A DNA stretch of 64,000 nt, taken from positions 2,503,001 through 2,567,000 of the forward strand of contig NZ_CP050699.1 of assembly GCF_005116675.2 (NCBI RefSeq). Direction: 5' to 3'. A program made the translations under genes and the position numbers. Origin of the DNA: Desulfosediminicola ganghwensis (GTDB lineage: Bacteria > Desulfobacterota > Desulfobulbia > Desulfobulbales > Desulfocapsaceae). Shown piece by piece: positions 4,004 through 16,906 of this stretch. The notes under the pieces were generated by a model. It did not search any database. It saw only the letters and a program-made list of their open reading frames with translations, and had not been told where the DNA came from. Position 1 is the first letter of the stretch. Every line of letters starts with the position of its first letter.

Positions 4004-6056
4004 GTGAACTGTTGATTGCCCTGCTTAAAGCCCGTTTGAGGGTTTCAGGGTCGATGGGTTTGGCGAGATAGTCATTCATCCCCGAGGCAAGAAATAATTC
4101 CCTATCTCCATCCATGGCATATGCGGTCATGGCAAGAATCGGAATATTGGCAAATGGCTTGAAATCATTATGTTGACGAATAAGGTGGGTGACTTCAACA
4201 CCATTTTTGCCGGGCATCTGGATATCGATGATAAGCAGGTCAAAATCCTTTTCAGCCTGTAAAACCTGCAGCATTTCGTTGCCGTTGCTTACGGAGCGGA
4301 CCTGATGCCCCATTTTATTCAACATGGTCCGGACCAGAACTCTGCTGATGGGGTCATCCTCGGCAAGCAGTATCTGCAGGTTGTCTGGTGTGGCAGGGAT
4401 CTGCCCCACTTGTTTGTCCTCAAACTGGATTTTTGTGGCGGATTCAAATGGAATACTGAGGGAAATTGTAGTACCTCTGCCTTTCTCGCTTGAGATAGCC
4501 ATGTTGCCGCCAAGCAGGGAGGTGAGCTGTTTGCAGATTGACAAGCCCAGTCCGGCTCCCTGGTGTTGTCTGGTAAGGCTGTTGTCTGCCTGGACAAAAG
4601 GGGTGAACAGGGTGGTAAGAGCCTCATCGTCTATACCGATTCCCGTATCTTGAATACAGAAAAAAGCTCGAATGCAATCGGGGGTTGGGGTGGTGATGGC
4701 AGATACTTCAACCCGTACTATTCCTGTTCTGGTGAATTTCAGGCTGTTGCCAATCAGGTTGGTGAGTATCTGTTGCAGGCGTATGACGTCGCCTATGAGA
4801 AAGTGGGGAAGGTTATCATCAATGCTGACCTGGAGCACAACATCTTTTTCGTAAAACGCTGGGGCGAAGAGTTGCTCTATACCGTAAATGGCCTCTCTGC
4901 TGTCAAAGCCCACAGGCTGTATTTTCAGCATTCCCGCCTCAACCTTTGAGAGGTCGAGTATATCACCAAGAAGGCGGGTCAGTCGCTCTGAGGCTATGAG
5001 GGCATTGCTGATATATTGCTCATGGCTGCTGGAGAGAGATTCAGCTTGTATGAGTTTCAGCATGCCGATAATGCCATTTAAAGGAGTGCGGATTTCATGA
5101 CTCATGTTGGCCAAAAACTCAGATTTATACCGGTTGGCTTTCTCTGCTTCCAGCTTGGCCTGAACAAGTTGCTGTTCAGCCTGTTTACGATCCGTAATAT
5201 CTCTTAAGGCGGTGAAACGAAGCCGTCTGCCCTCATCGCAATTTTTTGCCATACGGGCCTGGATTTCACATGGAAAGACAGAACCGTCTTTTCGAAGTGC
5301 AGTCACCTCATACGGGCTCTCGTTACATTCGCGCATCATCACCGCGACCCTTTCTCTGTCATCAGGATGGATCCACTCAATGCCTTTGCGCCCACATGCC
5401 TCTTCATCAGAATAGCCAAACATTTTCCTGGCAGCATTATTCTGGCTGATGCATATGCCGTTTTCTGAAATGAAGATCGCTTCAAAGGTGGCATTGTTAA
5501 GTAGCCGGTAGTGCTCGTTTATTGTAACTAGTTGTGAAAGAGATTCATATTGTTCCGTTACATCGTCTAAAGCACAAAGAACAGCTTCCGGCTTGGTCTC
5601 TGGAGAGCTTTTAATAGGGAAGCAGGAGATATTTACCCAGAGCGTCTCTTTTTGAGAGTTTGAAATTTGGTATCGTTGTTTGAAGAGTGGCTCGCCCGTG
5701 GTGAGGCAGCTTCGATGGGGATAATCAGCGATATCCAGATGTGTTCCGTCAGCCGTCATTAATTTGAGGCTACTGACATGGTGAGCAGTTTCAGCTTCAG
5801 GATTGAGAATGAAGAGAGTTTTTGCAGCAGCATTCAGGTGCTGGATGAGGTTGTCTCTGGAGATAAGCAGCAACCCGGCCTCAACACTGTCCCAAAGCAA
5901 ACTGCTGGTAGTGCTTATGCCCACTTTGCCGTCTTTAAAAGTATAATTAAGGAGGTTTTGCATATTATACGAGGGACTTCCTGTCTGGCTGGGAGACGTC
6001 TGCTCTGTATTTGCATCGGAATGTTTCATCAAAACTTTGCTGTAACCATGATTCAT
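3987..6056 (-). CDS. Hybrid sensor histidine kinase with two PAS domains and a receiver
   Basis: 689 residues, no transmembrane segment, so cytoplasmic. Domain order: PAS about 50-180, PAS with PAC about 190-310 (YRLLNNATFEAIFI, IHPDDRERV), a short coiled coil, HisKA with SHEIRTPLNGIIG at about 335-350 (phospho-His), HATPase with DTGIGI and GAGLGLSI (G1/G2 boxes), and a C-terminal receiver (ILLAEDDPISR, phospho-acceptor in IIDIQMPG, LAKPID with conserved Lys). All catalytic motifs are present. Relatives pass phosphate to an Hpt protein or separate regulator, not visible nearby. Signal unknown. Confidence 0.92.
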   Translation of the reverse strand: MNHGYSKVLMKHSDANTEQTSPSQTGSPSYNMQNLLNYTFKDGKVGISTTSSLLWDSVEAGLLLISRDNLIQHLNAAAKTLFILNPEAETAHHVSSLKLMTADGTHLDIADYPHRSCLTTGEPLFKQRYQISNSQKETLWVNISCFPIKSSPETKPEAVLCALDDVTEQYESLSQLVTINEHYRLLNNATFEAIFISENGICISQNNAARKMFGYSDEEACGRKGIEWIHPDDRERVAVMMRECNESPYEVTALRKDGSVFPCEIQARMAKNCDEGRRLRFTALRDITDRKQAEQQLVQAKLEAEKANRYKSEFLANMSHEIRTPLNGIIGMLKLIQAESLSSSHEQYISNALIASERLTRLLGDILDLSKVEAGMLKIQPVGFDSREAIYGIEQLFAPAFYEKDVVLQVSIDDNLPHFLIGDVIRLQQILTNLIGNSLKFTRTGIVRVEVSAITTPTPDCIRAFFCIQDTGIGIDDEALTTLFTPFVQADNSLTRQHQGAGLGLSICKQLTSLLGGNMAISSEKGRGTTISLSIPFESATKIQFEDKQVGQIPATPDNLQILLAEDDPISRVLVRTMLNKMGHQVRSVSNGNEMLQVLQAEKDFDLLIIDIQMPGKNGVEVTHLIRQHNDFKPFANIPILAMTAYAMDGDRELFLASGMNDYLAKPIDPETLKRALSRAINSSPTPVQ

Positions 6057-6271
6057 AAAGAGGATTGATACAATACTATTTACCCAGCATAACGATGTGG
6101 TGCAACGTAAATCAATGTGAAAACATAGTGTTAATGGTGCCGGTTGTACACCTTCCCCGATGGTGGGTGGTGTGGGTCTGTAAAATACAGCAATTTTTCT
6201 GTAACGACTTCAATTATTTCGGCGAATATAGAAGGTGAGAGATTGTATTTTATGACCCATTATGGAGAAGG

Positions 6272-6766
6272 GTGTTGACGAAAGAACAAAAAAGTACGAG
6301 CTCTGTAGATGAGGGGCAGCATTGCAGGCACGGCAGATTCAGGGTACAGGTGCAAGCCTGGGTGAGAGAATTTAGCCTCTGCCTGTTTCCTGCCTTACTG
6401 ATAATCGTTTTATCTGCAGACAGTCTGCAAGAAGCGGACGCCAACGGCGCTTCAGTGTATGCTGATGGCTCTATTGGGACAGGACTATCTCTAGACGAAA
6501 TTGTGAGGAGCTTAGGCAGGGAACTCAAGCTGACGGAAACCGAAATGGTGCACCTGGGCCGTGCTCTCGAAAACGCCAGGTTACAGTTGTCGCGCCTGAA
6601 TCAGGCCAGCGTTGTTGACGTATATGGTGATCCGGCCGGATTTTTGACTCAGCAGCAGCGTATAATCGAAGAGAGTCTGGAAGGCACTGCGGAATTTCTC
6701 AGCAAAAAGCAGTATCATAAGCTCAGGGTGGAGATTGCCTTTTTGTTAAATAATTGGCAACGTTAA
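6272..6766 (+). CDS. Small exported protein of unknown function
   Basis: 164 residues from GTG 6272. A hydrophobic stretch (SLCLFPALLIIVLSADS, about residues 35-52) preceded by basic residues suggests a signal anchor or late-processed signal peptide. The rest is helical and charged: LSLDEIVRSLGRELKLTETEMVHLGRALENARLQLS, then a region like the Spy/CnrR-type periplasmic helices. It lies upstream of the sigma factor operon and its helical mature part resembles the protein at 8015-8389, hinting at a related role. No named family recognised. Confidence 0.45.
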   Translation: MLTKEQKSTSSVDEGQHCRHGRFRVQVQAWVREFSLCLFPALLIIVLSADSLQEADANGASVYADGSIGTGLSLDEIVRSLGRELKLTETEMVHLGRALENARLQLSRLNQASVVDVYGDPAGFLTQQQRIIEESLEGTAEFLSKKQYHKLRVEIAFLLNNWQR

Positions 6767-6991
6767 CGGGTGCTTAAACTGTAGTTTGAAAAAAAATCTA
6801 AAAAAATTTAAAAAAGTGTAACCGGCAAGGCGTCTCGTGCGATTAAGAGAGTAAGTGAATAGATGCCGGATAGACGCGTTGGGCTCCCAGGCTTTCGTAC
6901 CCCCTCCCCAACCCTCCTCTCTCCAAACGGAACCCGGGAGTCCAACATGTTTACCTCCAAAAATACCGGCAACCATGACTTGAGTTCTTGA

Positions 6992-7666
6992 GTTGTCTAT
7001 GTTGCCTCAGGTCAGGAGCCTGGTCAAGCGGGGATAGGTATCAAAAGAATCGATAATATAACAGAACCGCCGGATGATATTGTCATAGAGAATATCCTGT
7101 CGGGTGATACAGAGCAGTTTCAGGCCCTCCTGGAGCGTTACCAGGCATATGTCTTCGCAATTGTGAGAAAATATGTGCCGCCGCAACTCGTGGAAGATGT
7201 GGCTCAAGAGGTGTTTCTTAAACTTTTCCGTTCGCTTGCCCTTTATCAGCCTCAGGGGGCCGGGCATGGAACAACCGGGAGTTTCAAGAGCTGGCTGGCG
7301 ACTATAACAGTTAGAACAAGCTATGACGCGCTTCGAAAGACGTACAGGTCTTCAGAGGTGACGATAAGTGAGTTGGCAGACAATCACGCACAATGGCTCG
7401 ATTCACTTCTTTCTACTTCTTCCCTCGAAGACTTTACCAGACACAGCCAGGCCAGAGAGGCAAAAGAAATTGTAGATCGGGTGATGACCAGGTTGAGTCC
7501 CGAGGACCAGATGGTTGTACGGCTGGTTCATTTTGAAGGGAACAGTACTGCTCAGGCAGCAGAAATCCTGGGTTGGTCCACCGCTAATGTTAAGATCAGG
7601 ACGTTTCGGGCTCGTACTAAGCTGCAGAAACTGATTGGAAACCTGCTGCGCGAAAATGAAAGGTGA
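6992..7666 (+). CDS. ECF-type sigma-70 factor, start codon unclear
   Basis: Given coordinates are the open frame. Region 2 (TEQFQALLERYQAYVFAIVRKYV then LVEDVAQEVFLKLF) and region 4 (RLSPEDQMVVRLVHFEGNSTAQAAEILG, a helix-turn-helix) are complete, so the product is an RNA polymerase sigma factor of the extracytoplasmic-function class that would direct transcription of its own operon and envelope-stress genes. Oddity: from the upstream stop at 6989 to the start of region 2 there is no ATG, GTG or TTG in frame. The first GTG, at 7163, would delete half of region 2. Initiation at an ATT/ATC/ATA codon (for instance ATC 7040 after GGGGATAGG, or ATT 7079) or a small indel near 7000 (an ATG at 6999 is in another frame) would explain it. 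Confidence 0.8.
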   Translation, partial: VVYVASGQEPGQAGIGIKRIDNITEPPDDIVIENILSGDTEQFQALLERYQAYVFAIVRKYVPPQLVEDVAQEVFLKLFRSLALYQPQGAGHGTTGSFKSWLATITVRTSYDALRKTYRSSEVTISELADNHAQWLDSLLSTSSLEDFTRHSQAREAKEIVDRVMTRLSPEDQMVVRLVHFEGNSTAQAAEILGWSTANVKIRTFRARTKLQKLIGNLLRENER

Positions 7667-7670
7667 CGTG

Positions 7671-7997
7671 ATGAACAGTAGAGAGAAAGAAGATATTAAA
7701 AAGCTTGAAGAAGTATTTAAAACTGTTCACCTGCAGCAGAACGATGATGCGGTTCAGCCAACTTTGCGCTGGCAAAATAGTGTAATGCGAGAGGTTCGGC
7801 ATATTGCCGCCCCTGGGCGAACCGATGTGCAGCGCTCTTCTCTCTTCTGGCCGTTGGCCCAGCTCGCCGCCGCAGTCGCAATTGTCCTGGGGGTAGCTTT
7901 TATCACCGATCAATCGCTGACCACCCTTGATATGGCCGTTTACGACTCGGAGATCTCAAGTAAAAATAATAGCTTGGTATCCTATTACTCTTTCTGA
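7671..7997 (+). CDS. Single-pass membrane protein, probable anti-sigma partner
   Basis: 108 residues. Starts 4 bases after the sigma factor stop, so the two are translationally coupled. The N-terminal 60 residues are charged (KEDIKKLEEVFKTVH) and would be cytoplasmic; one transmembrane helix follows (FWPLAQLAAAVAIVLGVAFI); a short tail ends up outside. This size, order and topology match anti-sigma factors of ECF operons. The HxxxCxxC zinc motif of ZAS anti-sigmas is absent. The anti-sigma role is inferred from context only. Confidence 0.6.
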   Translation: MNSREKEDIKKLEEVFKTVHLQQNDDAVQPTLRWQNSVMREVRHIAAPGRTDVQRSSLFWPLAQLAAAVAIVLGVAFITDQSLTTLDMAVYDSEISSKNNSLVSYYSF

Positions 7998-8014
7998 CAC
8001 ACCGACGGTTAATT

Positions 8015-8389
8015 ATGAAAAATGTTCGAATCGTTGCCACGCTTCTGGTTGTTTTCACTGTCGGTGCCGCCAGCGGTGCCCTGGGGACTCGCTCAATACT
8101 GCTTGAGCGTTTCAGGTTGATTCAGGCAGGTCCGACAGAAAAGCATGTGGAATTACTTATGAAGCGTTTTGATCAGAAACTTGCTTTGACGGAAACACAG
8201 GAGCAGCAATTGAGAGCGGTCCTGGTTTCAGCCATGGAACAAATCCATGTTGTCAGGCAGCAGGTTGATCCGCAGATTAAGGAGATAATCGCAGAGAGCA
8301 ATAAGGAAGTCATGACTATCCTTGATGAAGAGCAGGATGAAATATTTCTGCGATTGCTCAAAAATAAATTTAAAGATGTCCAGATGTGA
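8015..8389 (+). CDS. Periplasmic Spy/CnrR-like helical protein
   Basis: 124 residues. One hydrophobic N-terminal segment (VRIVATLLVVFTVGAASGAL) anchors or exports it; the remainder is a helical hairpin, KHVELLMKRFDQKLALTETQEQQLRAVL followed by VRQQVDPQIKEIIAESNKEV. The LT-x-x-Q-x-x-x-L turn and helical repeats resemble the heavy-metal-sensor/CpxP-Spy group (periplasmic chaperones or metal-responsive antagonists). Third gene of the sigma operon (17 bases after the anti-sigma candidate), so it may sense the envelope signal. Confidence 0.6.
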   Translation: MKNVRIVATLLVVFTVGAASGALGTRSILLERFRLIQAGPTEKHVELLMKRFDQKLALTETQEQQLRAVLVSAMEQIHVVRQQVDPQIKEIIAESNKEVMTILDEEQDEIFLRLLKNKFKDVQM

Positions 8390-8412
8390 ATCTGGAACCG
8401 GGTTCACTTGGG

Positions 8413-9195
8413 CTAAAAGGCAAACGTTACCCCGAGCAGGGGGCCTTCTGTCGATAAATCATAGACGTAGCCATCTTCTTCATAGTCGGCCTCGAAGTAA
8501 CGGTAGGCCAGATCCAGAATGATGAGGTCGCTGACTCTGTAACGAATTGCCGCTGTCCCCTGCCAGGTGAAATCGGAACCGACACCAAATCCTCCCATGT
8601 CAGCACGAAGTATCATCCCCCACTTTTCGTTGAGAGGGTATTGAAAATTCACTCCAACGATCGGGTCTACCCAGGTATCACCAATATCTGTGCCGGCACT
8701 TCTTCCCATCGCTCCGATAATGTCAATCTCGGTATTCGCGTCAATGAGGCGGAAGCCTGCGAACACGTCGAAATACTTCCATCTCTCCGGCTTATAGAAC
8801 AGTGCCGTGGTCCAGGCGGTTTCAGACACCTCAAGCTCGGCCCGGGCCGCATTGACTGTGGTGCCGGTGGAAACCGTCATATGTACGAAATCCATTCTGA
8901 TTCCCCAGGGACCCTTTTGGGCCTGGCCGTTCACGAGTAATGCCATGTCCAGGTTTTCAAGGATATCACTGAAGCTCAGATCGACGTCGGCGATGAGATC
9001 GACCCCGGTACCGCGAACATTTTTGACTCCTGTCCGGCCATCTTTCCCGACGGCCCAGAGGTATGGGCTGACTTCGAACTGCCACTCATCGGGGCTCCCG
9101 GCATGGCAAAGAGTGGGCATTACCAAAATAACAACGCGATAGCTACGGGTATCCTGGTCATGTGCTCTCCTCTCAATCACTGATATTTTCTTCAC
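8413..9195 (-). CDS. Outer-membrane beta-barrel protein, signal peptide out of frame
   Basis: From SPDEWQFEVSPYLWAVGKDG onwards the sequence alternates polar/hydrophobic strands and ends in GVTFAF with the terminal Phe typical of outer-membrane barrels; about 230 mature residues. Family: 'outer membrane beta-barrel / porin-like' proteins with SPYLW near the start. The in-frame ATG at 9195 lies inside the phosphatase gene and gives no signal peptide. A better start, ATG 9161 preceded by GAGGAGAGCAC, encodes a signal-like MTRIPVAIALLFW in another frame that hits TAA at 9120-9122. A one-base indel near 9121-9130 would join that signal to the barrel. Either a recent inactivating frameshift or a sequence error. 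Confidence 0.6.
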   Translation of the reverse strand: MKKISVIERRAHDQDTRSYRVVILVMPTLCHAGSPDEWQFEVSPYLWAVGKDGRTGVKNVRGTGVDLIADVDLSFSDILENLDMALLVNGQAQKGPWGIRMDFVHMTVSTGTTVNAARAELEVSETAWTTALFYKPERWKYFDVFAGFRLIDANTEIDIIGAMGRSAGTDIGDTWVDPIVGVNFQYPLNEKWGMILRADMGGFGVGSDFTWQGTAAIRYRVSDLIILDLAYRYFEADYEEDGYVYDLSTEGPLLGVTFAF

Positions 9196-10888
9196 ATACC
9201 TCTTTTAAAACTGAGCCATCGGCAGAAGACGGTGGCTTGATATGAAGACAATTCGCAAGTGTTCTCGCTATATCCACCGGGTGGATTAACCGGGAGACGG
9301 TTTTTGCCTTTATGCCGTTGCCTGCAAAAACAACCGGTACAAAAAGGTCATAGTTGTATGGGGAACCGTGCATGGCTGCTAAAGGTGTTGTTTCTTCAGA
9401 GACCAGATGATGATAGGGTTGCTGAATAATATAGATGTCGCCCGATCTTCCCTGATAGAAATTGTTGCGCACCAGCTGGTCGAATCTGCTGTTGATGAAT
9501 CGCTGCCGCTGCAGGGCAGAGGAGGAGAGGGCTGCAGCTATGCCGGGAATTTTTGTCATCTCTTCGGCTATGGTGAATTCGACTTCCTGCCGATCCAATC
9601 CTTTGTCAGCTATGACCTGGTGGTTGAGATAGATATAGGGATGGTAATAGAGTTCGATCAACTCCTTCCCCAGGCCAAATTTTTGCTGGAGTCCGGCCAT
9701 GATTTCGTCGGTGCTGACACGTTCAGGAGACATGCGCCTGGTCTGCATTCCCAACTGAGCCATTACCTCCGGGGCTTCAGGGTTTCCATGGTCGGCACTC
9801 AGCACGATAAGGGTCTTATCAAGACCTATTACCTTGTCTACCTCTGTAATAAGCGTTGCGAGAGTACGGTCGAGCCGGTAGAGGTTATCTTCACTTTCCA
9901 GGCTTGCAGGGCCGAAAATATGACTCACATAATCGGTTGAAGAGAAGCTGACTGCAAGGTAGTCACAGACCTGATCACGGCCGATTTGTTCCTGTTCTAT
10001 GAGGGTTTGGACAAAATCGAGAGTGAGCTCATCCCCCACCGGGCTGAGGGTGAGAAAGGTATAGAAATATTTTCGGTCATCACCATAATTATGGGGAAAG
10101 GTGCGGCCGAACCCCTTGATATCGATCTCAAAAGACCTGTCATCGGCATCGGCCTGCATATATCTGGCCTGGGGCTGACTCAACTCCCAGCTGGTGTTCA
10201 ACAGCTTATCTGCCTTATACTCATTGTTCCAACTCTTCACCCAGCCCGGATAGGCGTCGTAATAGTAGGTAGAGCTGATGAATTCGCCTGACTTTTTATT
10301 GAACCAGAAAGCTTTTCCACCGTGGCCAGCCAGTGGCACGGCGCCGCGGTCTTTTACTGATACCGCGAAAACCTTTGCCTGGCCGGCGGTGGCGAGCAGT
10401 AATTCATCGCTGAACGTTGAGCAGGGAATCGCCCTGGCCGAACGTCCCTCACTGCGGGCGGCGCGTTGAGTGGGGTCGATTTCGGTCTTCTTGTCGATGA
10501 AGCTTTTATCGCCGACCACGGAATACTCCGCATCTTCGATGTTGTAATGAAGTTGGCCTGATTCGCGGTCCAGCCAGATATTACCAATCATGCCGTGTTC
10601 GGCAGGCTGGGCACCTGTGGCCAGGGTTGCGTGTCCGACAATGGTTTCCGTATTCGAGTGTTGATAATATGCGTTGGTGAACCAGATGCCGTTTTCATAA
10701 AAGTACCTGAATCCGCCTGGTGGAAGTGCATCCATAAAGCGGAGCGGCATATCTCCGCGAAGACCATCAATGGTTATCTGTAATACCAGTCGCGGCTGTT
10801 GCTGCACGGCCGGAGCGGTTCCGCAACAGAACGAACATGCCAAAAAAGAGCTAAGCAAGGTGATCAGCCGGATCTTTGGGGGAATCAT
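9173..10888 (-). CDS. PafA-like alkaline phosphatase / phosphodiesterase
   Basis: 571 residues with a signal peptide (ITLLSSFLACSFCCGTAPA), hence periplasmic. Alkaline phosphatase superfamily motifs: metal site LQITIDGLRGD, nucleophile region HSNTETIVGHATLATG (Thr nucleophile, as in PafA/NPP-like enzymes), SFSSTDYVSHIFGP, LSADHGNPEAPEV, and late His AAMHGSPYNYD. Family members hydrolyse phosphate mono- or diesters using two zinc ions, often for phosphate scavenging. Length fits the family. Follows the sulfatase on the same strand (about 55 bases downstream of a terminator), and precedes the barrel protein. Confidence 0.88.
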   Translation of the reverse strand: MIPPKIRLITLLSSFLACSFCCGTAPAVQQQPRLVLQITIDGLRGDMPLRFMDALPPGGFRYFYENGIWFTNAYYQHSNTETIVGHATLATGAQPAEHGMIGNIWLDRESGQLHYNIEDAEYSVVGDKSFIDKKTEIDPTQRAARSEGRSARAIPCSTFSDELLLATAGQAKVFAVSVKDRGAVPLAGHGGKAFWFNKKSGEFISSTYYYDAYPGWVKSWNNEYKADKLLNTSWELSQPQARYMQADADDRSFEIDIKGFGRTFPHNYGDDRKYFYTFLTLSPVGDELTLDFVQTLIEQEQIGRDQVCDYLAVSFSSTDYVSHIFGPASLESEDNLYRLDRTLATLITEVDKVIGLDKTLIVLSADHGNPEAPEVMAQLGMQTRRMSPERVSTDEIMAGLQQKFGLGKELIELYYHPYIYLNHQVIADKGLDRQEVEFTIAEEMTKIPGIAAALSSSALQRQRFINSRFDQLVRNNFYQGRSGDIYIIQQPYHHLVSEETTPLAAMHGSPYNYDLFVPVVFAGNGIKAKTVSRLIHPVDIARTLANCLHIKPPSSADGSVLKEVCEENISD

Positions 10889-10910
10889 TGTTCAGGCTCA
10901 ATAGAAAATA

Positions 10911-10931
10911 AGGCCGGGATAATCCCGGCCT
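10911..10931 (-). terminator. Rho-independent terminator of the sulfatase gene
   Basis: Perfect GGCCGGGAT/ATCCCGGCC hairpin; read on the minus strand it follows the sulfatase stop by 14 bases and runs into TTATTTTC. Confidence 0.75.
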
Positions 10932-10944
10932 GTTGTGTGTGTGT

Positions 10945-12510
10945 TTATCTCGCTCCGGCAGGTTGAGTCAATGTTTCCATAACCTGATTCAGGCTGAAAC
11001 TGGCGGCTTTCTGCCTGGGAGGATATTCCTTGAACGTCTGCAGAAAATCACCGACATAAACTTGGGCTGGCACCAGCAGGAATACGCGGTCAATAACCCA
11101 GTCATAGTAGGTGTTGGAGGTCTTCTGGGAACGTTCGTACGGATCGCGGCGCAGATTAAAGATCAATGGCACCCGTAAAGGCACAAATGGCTCAGCCCAG
11201 GCCTGGAGGGTCGCTTCAACCCGTTGCTCCATGAATATGATCTTCCAGTCATCATAGCGAAGAGCGGTGAGATCGCCGTCGTCCGAGAAATAGAAGATCT
11301 CACGGCGTGGAGCCTTCTCCTCCTGGCCGGTCAGGTAGGGGAGAAAATTGTAGCCATCAAGGTGAACCTTGAAATTCTTGTCGCCTGCGACGTGCCCTTT
11401 CAGTAGCTGATCTTTGACATCGGGATTGCCGGCGGCGGCCACGAAGGTGGGCAGCCAGTCCATATGGTGCATTATATCGTTGGAGATCGAACCAGGCTCG
11501 ATTTTGCCAGGCCAGCGGATCATGGCTGGAACGCGCCAGCCACCTTCCCAGTTGGTGTTTTTCTCACCGCGAAATGGTGTTGCGGCCGCATCGGGCCAGG
11601 TGTTGTAATGGGGGCCGTTATCGGTGGAGTAGAAAACGATGGTATTGTCGGCAATGCCAAGTTCGTCGATCTTGTCCAGTAATTTACCAACGTGCATGTC
11701 GTGCTCCACCATGCCGTCGCTATATTCATCCTGCCCTGAGATCCCGCGTAATTCTTCTTTTACGTGGGTACGGAAATGCATGCGGGTGCCATTCCACCAG
11801 AGGAAAAACGGGGTATCCGAGCTGGCTTGGCGTTCCATGAAATCCAGGGCCGCCGCGACGGTCTCATCATCCACGGTCTCCATCCGCTTTTTGGTCAGGG
11901 GACCGGTGTCTTCGATTCTGCCGTCGGCGAAGGATTTTATTACACCGCGCGGGCCAAAACGTTTTCTAAACTCAGGATTCTTGGGATAGTCTTCGTTTTC
12001 CGGCTCTTCTTCCGCGTTGAGATGATAAAGATTGCCGAGGAACTCATCGAAACCATGGGCCGTCGGCAGATGCTCGTCGCGGTCACCCAGGTGGTTTTTA
12101 CCAAACTGGCCTGTGGCATAGCCGAGAGGCTTGAGCAATTCGGCAATAGTCGGATCTTCTGCTGCCAATCCCTCTTTGGCACCGGGGAGCCCGACTTTGC
12201 TGAGACCTGTGCGAAATACTGACTGGCCGGTGATGAAAGAAGACCGGCCTGCAGTACAACTCTGCTCACCGTAGTAATCGGTGAAGAGCATGCCTTCATC
12301 GGCAATTCTGTCGATATTCGGCGTACGATACCCCATCATTCCCCTGGAGTAGGCTGAGACATTTGTCTGGCCAATATCATCCCCCCATATGACAATGATA
12401 TTCGGTTTATCCGCACCTGCCGCGAGCGTTGAGAACGCTGTCAGAACGCCAAAGCAAACAGCCGCAGAAACAATTGTTTTCAAATGTGAAAAGTGTATAC
12501 CACTACCCAT
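10945..12510 (-). CDS. Arylsulfatase (formylglycine-dependent)
   Basis: 521 residues with an export signal (SAAVCFGVLTAFSTLAAGA). Type I sulfatase: metal-binding NIIVIWGDDIG, maturation signature CTAGRSS (Cys to formylglycine; Ala in place of the common Pro), YATGQFGKNHLGD, and FYSTDNGPH with the second Asp/Asn metal ligands. Hydrolyses sulfate esters in the periplasm. The Ala variant of C-x-P/A-x-R is accepted by both aerobic FGE and anaerobic anSME enzymes; no maturase is in the window. Ends in a terminator, and the phosphatase lies next downstream. Confidence 0.9.
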   Translation of the reverse strand: MGSGIHFSHLKTIVSAAVCFGVLTAFSTLAAGADKPNIIVIWGDDIGQTNVSAYSRGMMGYRTPNIDRIADEGMLFTDYYGEQSCTAGRSSFITGQSVFRTGLSKVGLPGAKEGLAAEDPTIAELLKPLGYATGQFGKNHLGDRDEHLPTAHGFDEFLGNLYHLNAEEEPENEDYPKNPEFRKRFGPRGVIKSFADGRIEDTGPLTKKRMETVDDETVAAALDFMERQASSDTPFFLWWNGTRMHFRTHVKEELRGISGQDEYSDGMVEHDMHVGKLLDKIDELGIADNTIVFYSTDNGPHYNTWPDAAATPFRGEKNTNWEGGWRVPAMIRWPGKIEPGSISNDIMHHMDWLPTFVAAAGNPDVKDQLLKGHVAGDKNFKVHLDGYNFLPYLTGQEEKAPRREIFYFSDDGDLTALRYDDWKIIFMEQRVEATLQAWAEPFVPLRVPLIFNLRRDPYERSQKTSNTYYDWVIDRVFLLVPAQVYVGDFLQTFKEYPPRQKAASFSLNQVMETLTQPAGAR

Positions 12511-12759: not shown

Positions 12760-14070
12760 TTGACGGCCGGAAGCAGGGAAAAGCAGGTGACTGATGGCGT
12801 GCTGAGCCAGTTCGTACTTCATCTGCATCCGAAGAGGGTGCCTGAAGAGACGCTGCGATTTACGCTGAGCTTCGGCCTGGGGGGAATCAGCCTGACCCTC
12901 CTGGTCCTGCTGGGTATATCAGGCGCAATGCAGCTGATGAGTTATGAACCGACCGTTCAGCATGCCCATGACACGGTGCGGGCCATGTATGGGGACAGCA
13001 ACATTTCGGGCTGGTTTCGTAATATCCACTACTGGTCCTCCAATCTGCTGATAGTGAGTATGGGGTTGCATCTGTTGCGGGTGCTCTGTACCGATGCACT
13101 TACCGGGGGCAGGCGCCTTAACTGGGTGGTGGGTACATTCATGTTGCTGCTGGTATTGCTGATCTGCTTTACCGGTTACCTGTTGCCATGGAGCCAGCTC
13201 TCATATTGGGCTGTTACTATTTTCATCAATATGGCCGGTTATATCCCTGTGGTCGGCGAAGTACTTACCGCTCCCTTCCGGACAGGCGGTACGGCCGTTG
13301 AGGTCGGGCAAGGTACGCTCAGTACCTTTTTTGTGCTGCATACGGGCTGGTTGCCGCTGACGCTCAGTGCTCTGGTACTCCTCCATATCTGGCTTATCCG
13401 CAAGGCAGGCGGACTGGTAACCAAAGATGCAGAATCCCGGAATAGACGTGTTGCTGTCAAACCTGCTCTTATAGTGCGGGAGGCCGCTGTGGGGTTGGTG
13501 GCTACCGCCCTGATTTTTCTGCTGGCATCATTTTTCGATGCGCCCGCAGGCGAGCCGGCGATGGTTGGGGTGAGCCCGAATCCTGTGAAAGCGGCCTGGT
13601 ATTTTATGGGCGTCCAGGAGATGCTGATTCATTTTCGTCCGGTATTTGCGGTATGTGTTTTTCCGGCCCTGACGTGTATCGCCTTCATCAGTCTGCCGTT
13701 CTGGCAACAAAGGCTTGAATCACCCGGAACCTGGTTTGGAGGACGACGTGGCCGAAAACTGGCCCTGGTCGCCGCCATAGGAGGTGCTTTTGCTGCCACG
13801 ATTCTTGTTGCTTATGATGCAATCGGGGGGCTGGACGGCAACGGTACTGAAGTACCGGCAATGGCTCTGGTCAGCCGAGGCTGGTTCTCCTTGGTTTTAC
13901 TCGGTGTTGGGCTTGGGGCCGGTTTCCTTCTGCTTACCCGGAAGAAGCACTACTTGAAAGGCGAAGTAATTCTCGCCGCCTGGATGGCTGTTTTCGCCTG
14001 GATGGTGACGTTGACGATAACCGGTATCTGGTTCAGGGGTCCCGGTATGCAATTACTCTTTCCCAGTTGA
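12760..14070 (+). CDS. Cytochrome b subunit of a Rieske/cytochrome b complex
   Basis: 436 residues; TTG start 3 bases after GGGAGGGGACTG. About eleven hydrophobic segments. The heme b ligands are seen as NIHYW...GLHLL (H-x13-H) in helix B and VLHTGW...LLHIW (H-x14-H) in helix D, the spacing of b6f/epsilon-proteobacterial-type cytochrome b. The Qo loop PWSQLSYWAV is present, but the PEWY motif reads AAWYF (Glu missing), so quinol oxidation at that site may differ. Membrane-embedded quinol:electron carrier step. First gene of a three-gene operon with the Rieske protein and an octaheme cytochrome. Confidence 0.92.
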   Translation: MTAGSREKQVTDGVLSQFVLHLHPKRVPEETLRFTLSFGLGGISLTLLVLLGISGAMQLMSYEPTVQHAHDTVRAMYGDSNISGWFRNIHYWSSNLLIVSMGLHLLRVLCTDALTGGRRLNWVVGTFMLLLVLLICFTGYLLPWSQLSYWAVTIFINMAGYIPVVGEVLTAPFRTGGTAVEVGQGTLSTFFVLHTGWLPLTLSALVLLHIWLIRKAGGLVTKDAESRNRRVAVKPALIVREAAVGLVATALIFLLASFFDAPAGEPAMVGVSPNPVKAAWYFMGVQEMLIHFRPVFAVCVFPALTCIAFISLPFWQQRLESPGTWFGGRRGRKLALVAAIGGAFAATILVAYDAIGGLDGNGTEVPAMALVSRGWFSLVLLGVGLGAGFLLLTRKKHYLKGEVILAAWMAVFAWMVTLTITGIWFRGPGMQLLFPS

Positions 14071-14082
14071 TACGGTAACCAT

Positions 14083-14607
14083 ATGAGTAAACGCCAGGGT
14101 GCTGAGGCTGCGACAGGAGAAGTTACTGGGCGCAGGAAGTTTTTAAACCGGATCTGGACTTTTCTGGCGGCTCTTGCCTGCCTGGAGTTCGGTTGGCTGT
14201 CTGTGCGGCTGGTGCGTTCAGCCGGGCAAAAACGAATGGAAGAAGGTAAGGCGGATTTCATCCGGGTAGGGCGTGTGGAAGATTTCTCACCAAACACTGT
14301 TACGGCGATTCCGCAGGGACAGTTTTATCTGGTTTGTCTGGAAGGCGAAGACTTTCGCGCCCTTTCGAGGCTCTGTACACATCTTGGCTGTGCAACGCTC
14401 TGGGACCAGGAGACAGAGCGCTTTATCTGCCCTTGCCACGGTTCATCATTTGATATAACCGGCAAAGTACTCACCCCACCTGCCTTGAAAGGTTTGAGTT
14501 CCCACCCGTTACGAATTGCAAATGGAGAGATTCTGGTGAACCGGGCGATTTCGGTACCGGCCCCATCAGCGGAGCCAGCTACCAGCAACGGAACTGTGAG
14601 GGGTTAA
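14083..14607 (+). CDS. Rieske [2Fe-2S] protein
   Basis: 174 residues, membrane-anchored by one helix (WTFLAALACLEFGWLSVRLV). Cluster ligands are intact: CTHLGC and CPCHGSS, giving two Cys, two His, and the disulfide-forming pair. The soluble domain faces the periplasm and accepts electrons from quinol at the cytochrome b subunit. Starts 13 bases after cytochrome b and ends 1 base before the multiheme gene, so all three are co-translated. Confidence 0.95.
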   Translation: MSKRQGAEAATGEVTGRRKFLNRIWTFLAALACLEFGWLSVRLVRSAGQKRMEEGKADFIRVGRVEDFSPNTVTAIPQGQFYLVCLEGEDFRALSRLCTHLGCATLWDQETERFICPCHGSSFDITGKVLTPPALKGLSSHPLRIANGEILVNRAISVPAPSAEPATSNGTVRG

Positions 14608-14608
14608 C

Positions 14609-16906
14609 ATGGCTCACCGCAATTCAGCTGACAGAACACTGGGCTGGGAGATGACGGCTCTTGCGGCGTTCTGTTTACTATTGCTCACTCCTTTTATCTA
14701 TCTCTGGCGGATGCAGGCGAATGTGCCGGTGCACTCTGCGTCGGAACCCGAATTTGTCGGCACCAGAACATGCGGGGAATGCCATCTGGAACAACACCGC
14801 AAATGGCAGGGATCGGATCACGACAAGGCAATGGCCCCAGCCACACCGGAGACCGTGCTTGGCGATTTCGCTGATACCGTTTTCACAGACCCCTATACCG
14901 GCAAGAAGAGTCGTTTTTTCAGGCGGGACAACAACTATTTCATAGAGACCGAAGATGTGGCGGACCAAAAGGGTGTGTACCAGGTGGCCTATACCTTCGG
15001 CCATTACCCTCTGCAGCAATACCTGATCCCCATGCCAGGAGGCAGAATGCAATGTTTCAATATCGCCTGGGATGTGGATCAAAAACGCTGGTATCGCCTG
15101 CCGCCCTACGAAGTAGATGGGGTTGATGACTGGTTGCACTGGACCGGAAGCGGTCAGAACTGGAATGGTATGTGTGCAGAATGTCACTCAACCAGGTTAA
15201 AGAAAAATTATGATCCGCAGAAAAACAGCTACTCCACCAGCTGGTTTGAGATAAACGTTGGCTGCGAAGCGTGTCACGGGCCAGGCTCAGAGCATGTGAA
15301 GTGGGCCAGGCAACCGGCTTTGGGGCGATCTCAGGAGGGTGCAGGTTTAGTGATTGAGGGAGATGAGGCCTTGCGGGAGCGGCAGATCTCTCTTTGTGCG
15401 CCTTGTCATGCCAGGCGATATCAACTTGGCGATAATCAGCACGATGGGGTCGATCCTCTGGATATGATGGTGCCCGCGTTGCTCACCGAAGAACTTTACT
15501 ATCCTGATGGCCAGATCAAAGAGGAAGTTTATGTCTACGGGTCGTTCATCCAGTCAAAAATGTATTTGCGGGGAGTGCGTTGTAATGATTGCCATGACTC
15601 GCATTCGCTGCAGACACACCGGCAGGGAAATGAACTCTGCACCCAGTGTCATCGCCGTCAGGATTACGATACTCCCGGCCACCACTTCCACAACAAAACG
15701 CACGAGGGAAAACCGAGTAAAGGGTATCTCTGCGTCAGCTGCCATATGAGCGGTCGCGTCTATATGGGTATAGATTATCGGCCCGATCACAGCTTGAGAG
15801 TCCCGCGGCCTGATCTGAGCATATCAATCAAGACCCCCAACAGTTGCTCCACTTCAGCGTGCCATGGAGACAAGTCGCTTGACTGGGTGAACGAGAAGTA
15901 CGGAATATGGTATGGGCAGCAGAACAGGCCCCACTACGGTGAAGCCATAGAAGCTGGCAGAGCCAGAAAACCAGAGGGGCTGGAGCAACTGAAAGATGTG
16001 GCTGAAGACACGCTGCTTCCACCTATAGTGCGAGCCACGGCAATATCTCTTCTGGCGAACTATCCGGGGCAGGGGATTGAGTCGACCATCGTCAAGGCTC
16101 TGGAGAGTAACGAAGGTCTGCTTCGGCACGCCGCTCTGCGAACTTTTGAGCGGTCCGACACAGACAGAATCAGGGCTCTGGTCGCCCCCAAGCTCTACGA
16201 CCCGTCGCGGGCAGTGCGCCTTGAGGCGGCGGCGCGGCTGGCGGCTGTCCCTGGTGAAAGTCTTCGCCAAGAGGATCGCGCAGTATTTCAGGAGACGTTG
16301 TCTGAGTACAGGCAATCACTGGCATATAATGCAGATTTTGCCAGCCAACGGCATAACGAAGGGAACCTGGAGTGGGAGCTGGGCGACGAGGAAAAAGCGG
16401 CCCGCAGTTATCTGGCAGCGTTGAAGATAGATGATCGCTTTATCCCGGCCAAGGTGAATCTGGCAATGTTGTATAACCGGCAGGGCAATAACCGGGATGC
16501 TATTGAATTGCTGCAGGAGGTGTTAACGGATCGGCCGACAATGTATGAAGTTCACTATTCCCTCGGGCTGCTGTTATCGGAATTGAACCGGTATGACGAG
16601 GCAGTAGTTTATTTGCAGCAAGCGGCCGAGGGCATGCCTGGCTATTCGAGGGTGCGCTACAACTTTAGCCTGGCGCTGTTCAAGCTGCAGCGCTGGCAAC
16701 AGGGCGCAAATGTGTTGCGTGAACTGGTATTACAAAACCCGGAGGTTAGTGAGTATTTCGTTACACTGGTCAATCTGTACCTCAACTTTGGTATGGGGCC
16801 TCAGGCTGAGCAGCTGGCCTATGACGTTCTGAAAATCATGCCTGATCATCCGGGGGCAAAAGATCTGCTCAAGGCAATGCGGCAGAACAGGAAGCCTCAG
16901 AGGTAA
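14609..16906 (+). CDS. Octaheme cytochrome c with HEAT and TPR C-terminus
   Basis: 765 residues. N-terminal membrane anchor (LAAFCLLLLTPFIYLWRM), then seven CXXCH sites near residues 54, 188, 220, 263, 324, 343 and 374, and an eighth, CSTSACH (C-x4-CH), near 412. Early spacing resembles the cytochrome c554/multiheme family (GTRTCGECHLEQHRKWQGSDH). Residues about 450-540 form HEAT-like helices, and 570-760 at least four TPRs (YLAALKIDDRFIPAKVNLAM). It replaces the usual cytochrome c1/f as electron acceptor for the Rieske protein; the TPR tail probably docks a partner in the periplasm. Functional inference from operon structure. Confidence 0.9.
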   Translation: MAHRNSADRTLGWEMTALAAFCLLLLTPFIYLWRMQANVPVHSASEPEFVGTRTCGECHLEQHRKWQGSDHDKAMAPATPETVLGDFADTVFTDPYTGKKSRFFRRDNNYFIETEDVADQKGVYQVAYTFGHYPLQQYLIPMPGGRMQCFNIAWDVDQKRWYRLPPYEVDGVDDWLHWTGSGQNWNGMCAECHSTRLKKNYDPQKNSYSTSWFEINVGCEACHGPGSEHVKWARQPALGRSQEGAGLVIEGDEALRERQISLCAPCHARRYQLGDNQHDGVDPLDMMVPALLTEELYYPDGQIKEEVYVYGSFIQSKMYLRGVRCNDCHDSHSLQTHRQGNELCTQCHRRQDYDTPGHHFHNKTHEGKPSKGYLCVSCHMSGRVYMGIDYRPDHSLRVPRPDLSISIKTPNSCSTSACHGDKSLDWVNEKYGIWYGQQNRPHYGEAIEAGRARKPEGLEQLKDVAEDTLLPPIVRATAISLLANYPGQGIESTIVKALESNEGLLRHAALRTFERSDTDRIRALVAPKLYDPSRAVRLEAAARLAAVPGESLRQEDRAVFQETLSEYRQSLAYNADFASQRHNEGNLEWELGDEEKAARSYLAALKIDDRFIPAKVNLAMLYNRQGNNRDAIELLQEVLTDRPTMYEVHYSLGLLLSELNRYDEAVVYLQQAAEGMPGYSRVRYNFSLALFKLQRWQQGANVLRELVLQNPEVSEYFVTLVNLYLNFGMGPQAEQLAYDVLKIMPDHPGAKDLLKAMRQNRKPQR

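Follow-up and report, generated by a model that had tools for sequence, protein, structure and literature searches.

A Rieske/cytochrome b gene set with a Glu-less Qo motif, a TPR-tailed octaheme cytochrome as its third gene and a genomic tie to sulfatases

The window considered here, a stretch of 64,000 nucleotides from Desulfosediminicola ganghwensis (G000:C1:2503001-2567000, in a genome of 5.65 Mb on a single contig), contains at positions 12760-16906 three adjoining genes, all on the plus strand, for a cytochrome b, a Rieske protein and an octaheme cytochrome that bears helical repeats. We propose that the product of this gene set, hereafter the cassette, is a Rieske/cytochrome b complex linked to menaquinol. 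In place of cytochrome c1 or f it would have an octaheme cytochrome that is anchored in the membrane, belongs to the OcwA/MccA branch of the NrfA family and carries a HEAT/TPR tail as a fusion. We assign this reading a probability of about one half. It is backed, from sequences and structural models, by the gene set itself, a quinol oxidation (Qo) site that lacks the usual Glu, the conserved residues E287 and H291, b6-like heme ligands, an OcwA-like fold, co-evolution of the genes and a tie to sulfatases. An initial annotation, made from the DNA letters, had described the locus as a Rieske/cytochrome b set with an octaheme TPR cytochrome; the open reading frames lie as it placed them and the Pfam matches agree. 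The four heme-ligating His of cytochrome b are encoded together with a Rieske protein, and this full set of His, with the Rieske cluster motifs, supports a complex that oxidizes quinol. The cytochrome b gene starts with a TTG codon, preceded by the stretch AGGGAGGGG. A cassette of the same make is present on contig NZ_FRFE01000023.1 of Desulfopila aestuarii DSM 18488, a member of the same genus group, which NCBI ranks in the Desulfocapsaceae.

The cytochrome b resembles those of the bc1 and b6f complexes in its fold and its four heme His, as does the cassette in possessing a Rieske protein. When the model of this protein was compared with whole cytochrome b chains of bc1 complexes, Z was about 30. 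The spacing of the ligands is 14 and 15, and the N-terminal half matches the b6 profile with an E-value of 1.3e-59. The heme c_n of b6 is anchored by Cys35; opposite this residue the window protein has Gly39, and Gly is found there in at least 90% of its relatives. The cassette differs from b6f, with its split b6 and subunit IV and its heme c_n Cys, in having one chain of 436 residues and a Gly, and from bc1, with its PEWY Glu and c1 gene, in having AAWY and an octaheme cytochrome as the third gene. In the window protein alone residue 145 is Ser (13192-13194), and 37 of 38 relatives have Asp there (PWDQ).

The absence of the PEWY Glu, noted in the initial annotation, withstood an alignment that might have overturned it. 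In a profile alignment with subunit IV of b6f the Glu lies opposite the Ala/Pro position of the window motif; this match is weak (E 0.5), and the W-Y-F register is plain. The same column in 38 aligned relatives holds Pro in 31 and Ala in 7. The loss also proved to be clade-wide, as had been left for checking. Among 57 cassette rows, 48 had a cytochrome b that was readable, meaning that it fitted a pattern requiring Ala or Pro in first place, and all 48 lack the Glu (AP in 34, AA in 14). The switch between AP and AA is a single change on the cytochrome b tree, so that AA has a single origin. A wider set is provided by loci of the phylum that resemble Geobacter ExtQ, of which 25 were collected from 148 genomes and 22 were read. 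The Glu is missing from 21 of these, one of them the window, and all 21 have the pair QE where the window has Q286 and E287. The remaining readable locus bears the Glu (AEWY) and has YQ. One ExtQ-like locus (L184) reads APGYF.

Based on this pattern, we propose that the acid of the Qo site has been relocated two helical turns down, to E287, eight residues downstream of the missing Glu. Q286, E287 and H291 are invariant among the 38 aligned relatives. Two Glu-bearing loci (L188 and L064) have Q in place of E287, and these are the only two such controls read. Within the D. ganghwensis genome itself, the paralogue with PEWY has Q at this position and a short paralogue with GPWFF has E.

It had also been suggested that the altered Qo site reflects a different quinol. 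This explanation is weakened by the presence in the same genome of a second complex that carries RPEWYF since, if a single pool is assumed, the quinone pool alone fails to explain the loss of Glu. The second residue of the PEWY motif varies systematically with potentials and with the quinone, and replacing it lowers turnover only partly, as stated in one review (PMC9162462). A genome with both a PEWY complex and a Glu-less one makes the debated role of this Glu testable. The second set (L064, G000:C1:343000-358000, 5729-11620, minus strand) is unusual in its own right. Its products are a flavoprotein of the SdhA/FrdA type, an iron-sulfur protein of the SdhB type with a fused Rieske domain, the RPEWYF cytochrome b, which is itself joined to a cytochrome c domain, and a protein resembling fumarase. 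From its genes the set appears to be a bc complex linked to succinate. A third, minimal set (L065, G000:C1:4594000-4609000, 7211-8499, plus strand) consists of a Rieske protein and a cytochrome b of 289 residues with SGPWFFLGLQEL, and no cytochrome c adjoins it. Similar short cytochromes b were found in many genomes of the order.

The Rieske protein of the cassette retains the Ser beside its cluster and has Phe instead of the Tyr. Mutants in this Tyr have lower potentials, yet one anammox protein without it has a high potential, according to the part of the anammox study available (PMC12954380). We therefore infer no potential for the Rieske protein of the window.

The third gene encodes seven CxxCH motifs and one C-x4-CH. 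The initial annotation counted the latter as a heme site, and this is very probably correct, because the two Cys and the His do not vary among 42 aligned relatives and because this motif is exchanged with CxxCH during evolution: CX4CH is present at heme 8 in 30 of the 87 rows of the octaheme tree described below, and the switch between the two forms requires 2 changes. A motif of the CX4CH type occurs in Desulfovibrio c3. The possibility that the motif binds no heme was discarded on the strength of its conservation. Outside the motifs seven His are invariant in the 42 relatives (71, 229, 332, 358, 359, 361 and 394). With seven such residues for eight hemes there is room for one open heme, which is suggestive of a five-coordinate site.

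An AlphaFold2 model of the octaheme protein (pLDDT 88) has a membrane helix (residues 6-37); strands occupy residues 75-163, in the interval from motif 1 to motif 2, and from about residue 424 onwards the chain forms helical repeats. The heme domain matches OcwA (6i5b) with a profile E-value of 8e-25 and, by structure, with Z 13.9 and a root-mean-square deviation of 3.6 over 328 residues, a match that ranks under many TPR chains, which match the octaheme tail. In the alignment with OcwA, motifs 1, 2 and 3 are paired and window motifs 5-8 fall on the last four of OcwA; heme 4 is not displayed. A single OcwA motif, which we take to be heme 5, is left unpaired. The absence of heme 5 is the layout of MccA, hemes 2 and 5 of OcwA are open, and a beta-sheet insert is common to OcwA and MccA (PMC6703420, in the part available). 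The modelled insert between motifs 1 and 2 of the window protein resembles this one. Thus, as judged from the model, the heme domain appears to have the fold of OcwA minus its heme 5, in the MccA layout, and it shares with the NrfA/MccA/OcwA family both the common fold and the order of heme motifs. It differs from OcwA and MccA in its eight hemes (OcwA has nine), its membrane anchor, its HEAT/TPR tail, its C-x4-CH and its Rieske/cytochrome b partner. HAO, ONR and others are absent from the list of folds compared, and are not thereby excluded as likenesses. Two decaheme families were tried and rejected, both scoring below their cut-offs: DmsE (31.7 of 192.2 bits) and GSU2203 (50.5 of 325 bits). 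The initial annotation had further assigned the protein a HEAT/TPR tail for docking. The TPR portion is real, as judged from Pfam TPR_19, the model and the fold matches; the HEAT_2 match is below its Pfam cut-off, and docking would be a plausible use for such a tail.

Since OcwA is a terminal reductase at the cell surface (PMC6703420, again from the part available), it may be asked whether the octaheme protein is simply an electron wire without catalysis, through which the quinol pool supplies other cytochromes, in the periplasm or the outer membrane, or a heme-copper oxidase. Of 58 relatives, 13 have the complex, and 12 of these also have a heme-copper oxidase (PF00115 above its cut-off), as do 18 of the 45 that lack the complex. 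This contrast shrinks to 12/13 versus 13/24 within the family alone, the genomes are related, one genome (G036) has the complex and no heme-copper oxidase, and a wire leaves the sulfatase link described below unexplained. We therefore regard this idea as doubtful. NrfA itself (PF02335 above cut-off) is present in 38 of the 58 relatives, and we draw no link between it and the complex.

That the octaheme gene stands where a c1/f gene would be expected, and has evolved together with those for cytochrome b and the Rieske protein, is supported by the operon, by the tree and by distances. A genome scan found at least 578 stretches encoding such octaheme proteins, and the best 80 entered the locus counts and the tree. 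To these were added 9 loci and the window, five duplicate copies having been omitted beforehand, and 3 of the 90 candidates were removed because they had fewer than 8 motifs. On the resulting tree of 87 rows the cassette label, borne by 57, changes 6 times, compared with a mean of 25.1 when labels were shuffled. Distances between cytochromes b and between octaheme proteins are correlated over 48 loci with r = 0.84, and 0 of 2000 permutations gave a value as high. Five rows in which the octaheme gene stands alone are nested in the cassette group. In four of these (L092, L100, L107 and L123) the contig ends within 400 bases upstream; L131 has 6 kb. More generally, 31 loci among the best 80 have no visible cytochrome b or Rieske gene, and 11 of these have less than 1.5 kb upstream. 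Given the 6 changes and the contig ends, the simplest reading is one in which octaheme and Rieske/cytochrome b genes seem to have been joined once, with few losses.

Lone octaheme-TPR genes are present in Gammaproteobacteria, Alphaproteobacteria, Acidobacteria, Planctomycetes and further groups. Plasmids also contribute matches to the octaheme protein, in 161 records (Rhizobium 64, Sinorhizobium 60). A plasmid of Aureibacter (Bacteroidota) carries the whole cassette (APWYF, QE) with adjoining sulfatase genes. In L080 (G015:C43:803000-820000) a truncated second octaheme gene with 4 of 8 motifs (7474-9051) lies about 2 kb from sulfatase fragments.

The nearest gene upstream of the window cassette, divergently oriented, encodes an arylsulfatase with the active-site motif CTAGR. 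Sulfatase genes are rare in these bacteria, 34 relatives yielding 116 matches to PF00884 in about 135 Mb (summed). A sulfatase lies within 5 kb at 14 of 38 cassette loci and at 6 of 17 lone octaheme loci that extend 3 kb or more on one side; at most cassette loci (24/38) none is in reach. In Desulfosarcina alkanivorans the sulfatase gene sits between those for the Rieske and octaheme proteins, and on plasmids Cys-type sulfatases lie near lone octaheme genes (CSPTR in Rhizobium, CTAGR in Pseudoalteromonas, a CTAGR frame in Sinorhizobium). The Rhizobium and Pseudoalteromonas hosts of these lone genes are aerobes. The linked enzymes thus span several subfamilies (CTAGR, CSPTR, CTPSR), which indicates that the constant partner is the sulfatase and not one substrate. 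In 375 genomes of the phylum, with cut-offs of E <= 1e-60 for the sulfatase subfamily and, by our own choice, E <= 1e-40 for the octaheme protein, the CTAGR sulfatase was found in 34, the octaheme protein in 52 and both in 26 (Fisher p 6e-19). The sulfatase, octaheme and anSME scans were taken as covering the same 375 genomes from their handles, not matched singly, and because the genomes are related this and the following Fisher p values are too small. The octaheme gene is tied in these genomes to Cys-type sulfatases. We consider this link the best clue to function, and it is also the least explained of our observations.

One reading of the link is that the sulfatase, an HAD phosphatase and the octaheme protein successively process a compound that carries sulfate or phosphate groups, with the octaheme protein oxidizing or reducing the product. 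Of 110 neighbouring proteins listed, 84 were scanned, and among these HAD proteins (PF12710) numbered 6 and MscS-type channels 4. In Pseudoalteromonas the genes for HAD, octaheme and arylsulfatase are side by side, and in Rhizobium the octaheme gene adjoins arylsulfatases and an MscS channel. Such a scavenging pathway is nonetheless unlikely: the variety of sulfatase subfamilies makes a common substrate improbable, and at many loci an HAD or a sulfatase gene is missing from the reach of the contig.

The constancy of the sulfatase itself would be accounted for if the octaheme protein were a heme-based maturase that converts Cys to formylglycine in the exported sulfatase, in the periplasm, with the substrate held by the TPR tail and electrons passing through Rieske and cytochrome b into menaquinone, the reverse of bc1. 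It would then replace anSME, which is present in 44 of the 375 genomes (43 above cut-off). An octaheme or anSME gene is found in 31 of the 34 sulfatase genomes; of the other three, one is a genome with a completeness of 85% and two carry a sulfatase gene interrupted by an in-frame stop. As to proximity, 17 genomes have the octaheme gene no more than 10 kb from a sulfatase, 5 have anSME at such a distance and 0 have both. Among 12 relatives without anSME, all 5 that have Cys-type sulfatases have the cassette and none of the 7 without such sites has an octaheme gene (Fisher p 0.001). These 12 were read out of 14 with a PF00884 match, G045 and G046 (one weak match each) being left out, and in G015 6 of 8 matches were read. 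In anSME-positive relatives, 20 PF00884 matches were read, 12 of Cys type and 8 without the Cys pattern, which is blind to Ser-type sites. D. ganghwensis has three Cys-type sulfatases (CTAGR, CTPTR and CTPTR) and no recognized maturase: no protein reaches the anSME cut-off (best score 72 of 349 bits), and a pattern for the FGE Cys pair found none in the PF03781 proteins. MauG offers a precedent for a heme-based maturase.

Despite these correlations, we hold this to be very unlikely. Removal of hydrogen from Cys requires a strong oxidant, and none is available to an anaerobe's heme chain of low potential; it is mainly this difficult chemistry that keeps our estimate low. In addition, 7 of the 34 sulfatase genomes hold the octaheme gene and anSME as well, half of the octaheme genomes (26/52) lack this sulfatase subfamily, the cassette loci with no sulfatase within 5 kb are in the majority, as noted above, and the maturase covered by the 375-genome survey was anSME. 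If it were true, the octaheme protein would stand in for anSME where Cys-type sulfatases occur without a known maturase, and the tie would reveal a further route to formylglycine; otherwise the tie suggests that sulfatases have a redox partner, one that did not appear in the literature surveyed.

We return to the menaquinol-oxidizing complex, for which the following mechanism may be envisaged. Quinol would be oxidized at the Glu-less Qo site, and its protons would be accepted by E287 and the Rieske His. One electron would pass from the Rieske protein to the octaheme chain and the other would cross to the n side through the b hemes. The octaheme protein may have an open site at its heme 2, where reduction could take place, and the TPR tail may dock a periplasmic protein, perhaps from the sulfatase module. 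Several observations weigh against this proposal. One locus (L079) has APWFF followed by QG, a loss of Glu with no E at the later position, and the Glu-bearing controls for this position number only two. The 84 neighbouring proteins scanned include no recurrent acceptor; the neighbours that do recur are sulfatase, HAD and a Bat-type cluster. Finally, plain forward respiration leaves the sulfatase link unexplained.

Rieske/cytochrome b complexes with multiheme partners, and variability of the Qo motif, are already known. The ExtO/ExtP/ExtQ proteins of the Geobacter selenite/tellurite operon likewise combine Rieske and b-type cytochromes with multiheme cytochromes, and ExtP/ExtQ are the best NCBIfam match for all 38 cytochromes b scanned; as described above, ExtQ-like loci share the missing Glu and the QE pair. 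They differ in being split chains (NF040969 and NF040970), which the window protein matches with 206.6 of 290 and 43 of 150 bits, under the curated cut-offs, and the Ext operon cytochromes have 4, 5, 10 and 12 hemes in the available account (PMC5877670). In the anammox complexes of Kuenenia a hexa- or octaheme cytochrome also replaces cytochrome f. These complexes have a split b6/subunit IV, a heme c_n and an NAD(P) oxidoreductase subunit, as far as the part of the study available describes them (PMC12954380), and the cassette has none of these; no NAD(P) oxidoreductase subunit is among its three genes or recurs among the neighbours scanned. In the titles and opening lines of abstracts surveyed, neither a TPR-octaheme Rieske/cytochrome b complex nor a sulfatase/octaheme link appeared, older subscription papers on multiple complexes lying outside this coverage, and a search for the terms in the main text of PMC10553843 gave no match. 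This literature likewise made no mention of a third subunit that is an OcwA/MccA-type TPR-octaheme protein, of its spread, of an invariant E287 or of the tie to sulfatases, all of which are apparently new. If our proposal is correct, a Rieske/cytochrome b complex has adopted an octaheme protein of this type, with its own docking tail, across several phyla, and its Qo acid may have moved.

Table 1. Positions of the cassette genes, their principal motifs and the neighbouring genes in the window.
Feature	Position	Strand	Evidence and remarks
Cytochrome b, 436 residues, one chain; heme ligands H90/H104 and H194/H209	12760..14070	+	Pfam PF00033 (3e-35); b6-type spacing; model pLDDT 83
Qo motif AAWYF, residues 278-282, without Glu	13591..13605	+	Sequence, alignment
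E287 to H291, both ends invariant in 38/38 relatives; E287 proposed as relocated Qo acid	13618..13632	+	Alignment; putative role
Rieske protein, 174 residues; twin-Arg N terminus; cluster motifs CTHLGC and CPCHGSSF	14083..14607	+	Pfam PF00355 (1.6e-11); sequence
Octaheme c-type cytochrome, 765 residues: N-terminal membrane helix (6-37), heme domain, HEAT/TPR tail	14609..16906	+	Pfam, sequence, AlphaFold2 model
Eighth heme motif C-x4-CH, residues 413-419 (CSTSACH)	15845..15865	+	Sequence, conservation, tree
TPR helices, residues 554-761	16268..16891	+	Pfam TPR_19 (7.6e-15); model
Divergent exported arylsulfatase, CTAGR active site	10945..12510	-	Pfam PF00884 (1.9e-50); near octaheme genes in other genomes too
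PafA-like alkaline phosphatase; near cassette also in L084, L094 and L109; module membership uncertain	9173..10888	-	

RNA fold prediction showed nothing 3' of the octaheme gene, the last of the cassette. After the PafA gene there is a gene (8413-9195, minus strand) for a protein of 260 residues that has no Pfam match and resembles an outer-membrane barrel. Bat-type genes (BatD-like, vWA) lie near the cassette in five species (L084, L077, L101, L116 and L125); one member was recognized by Pfam DUF7939 and the others by eye.

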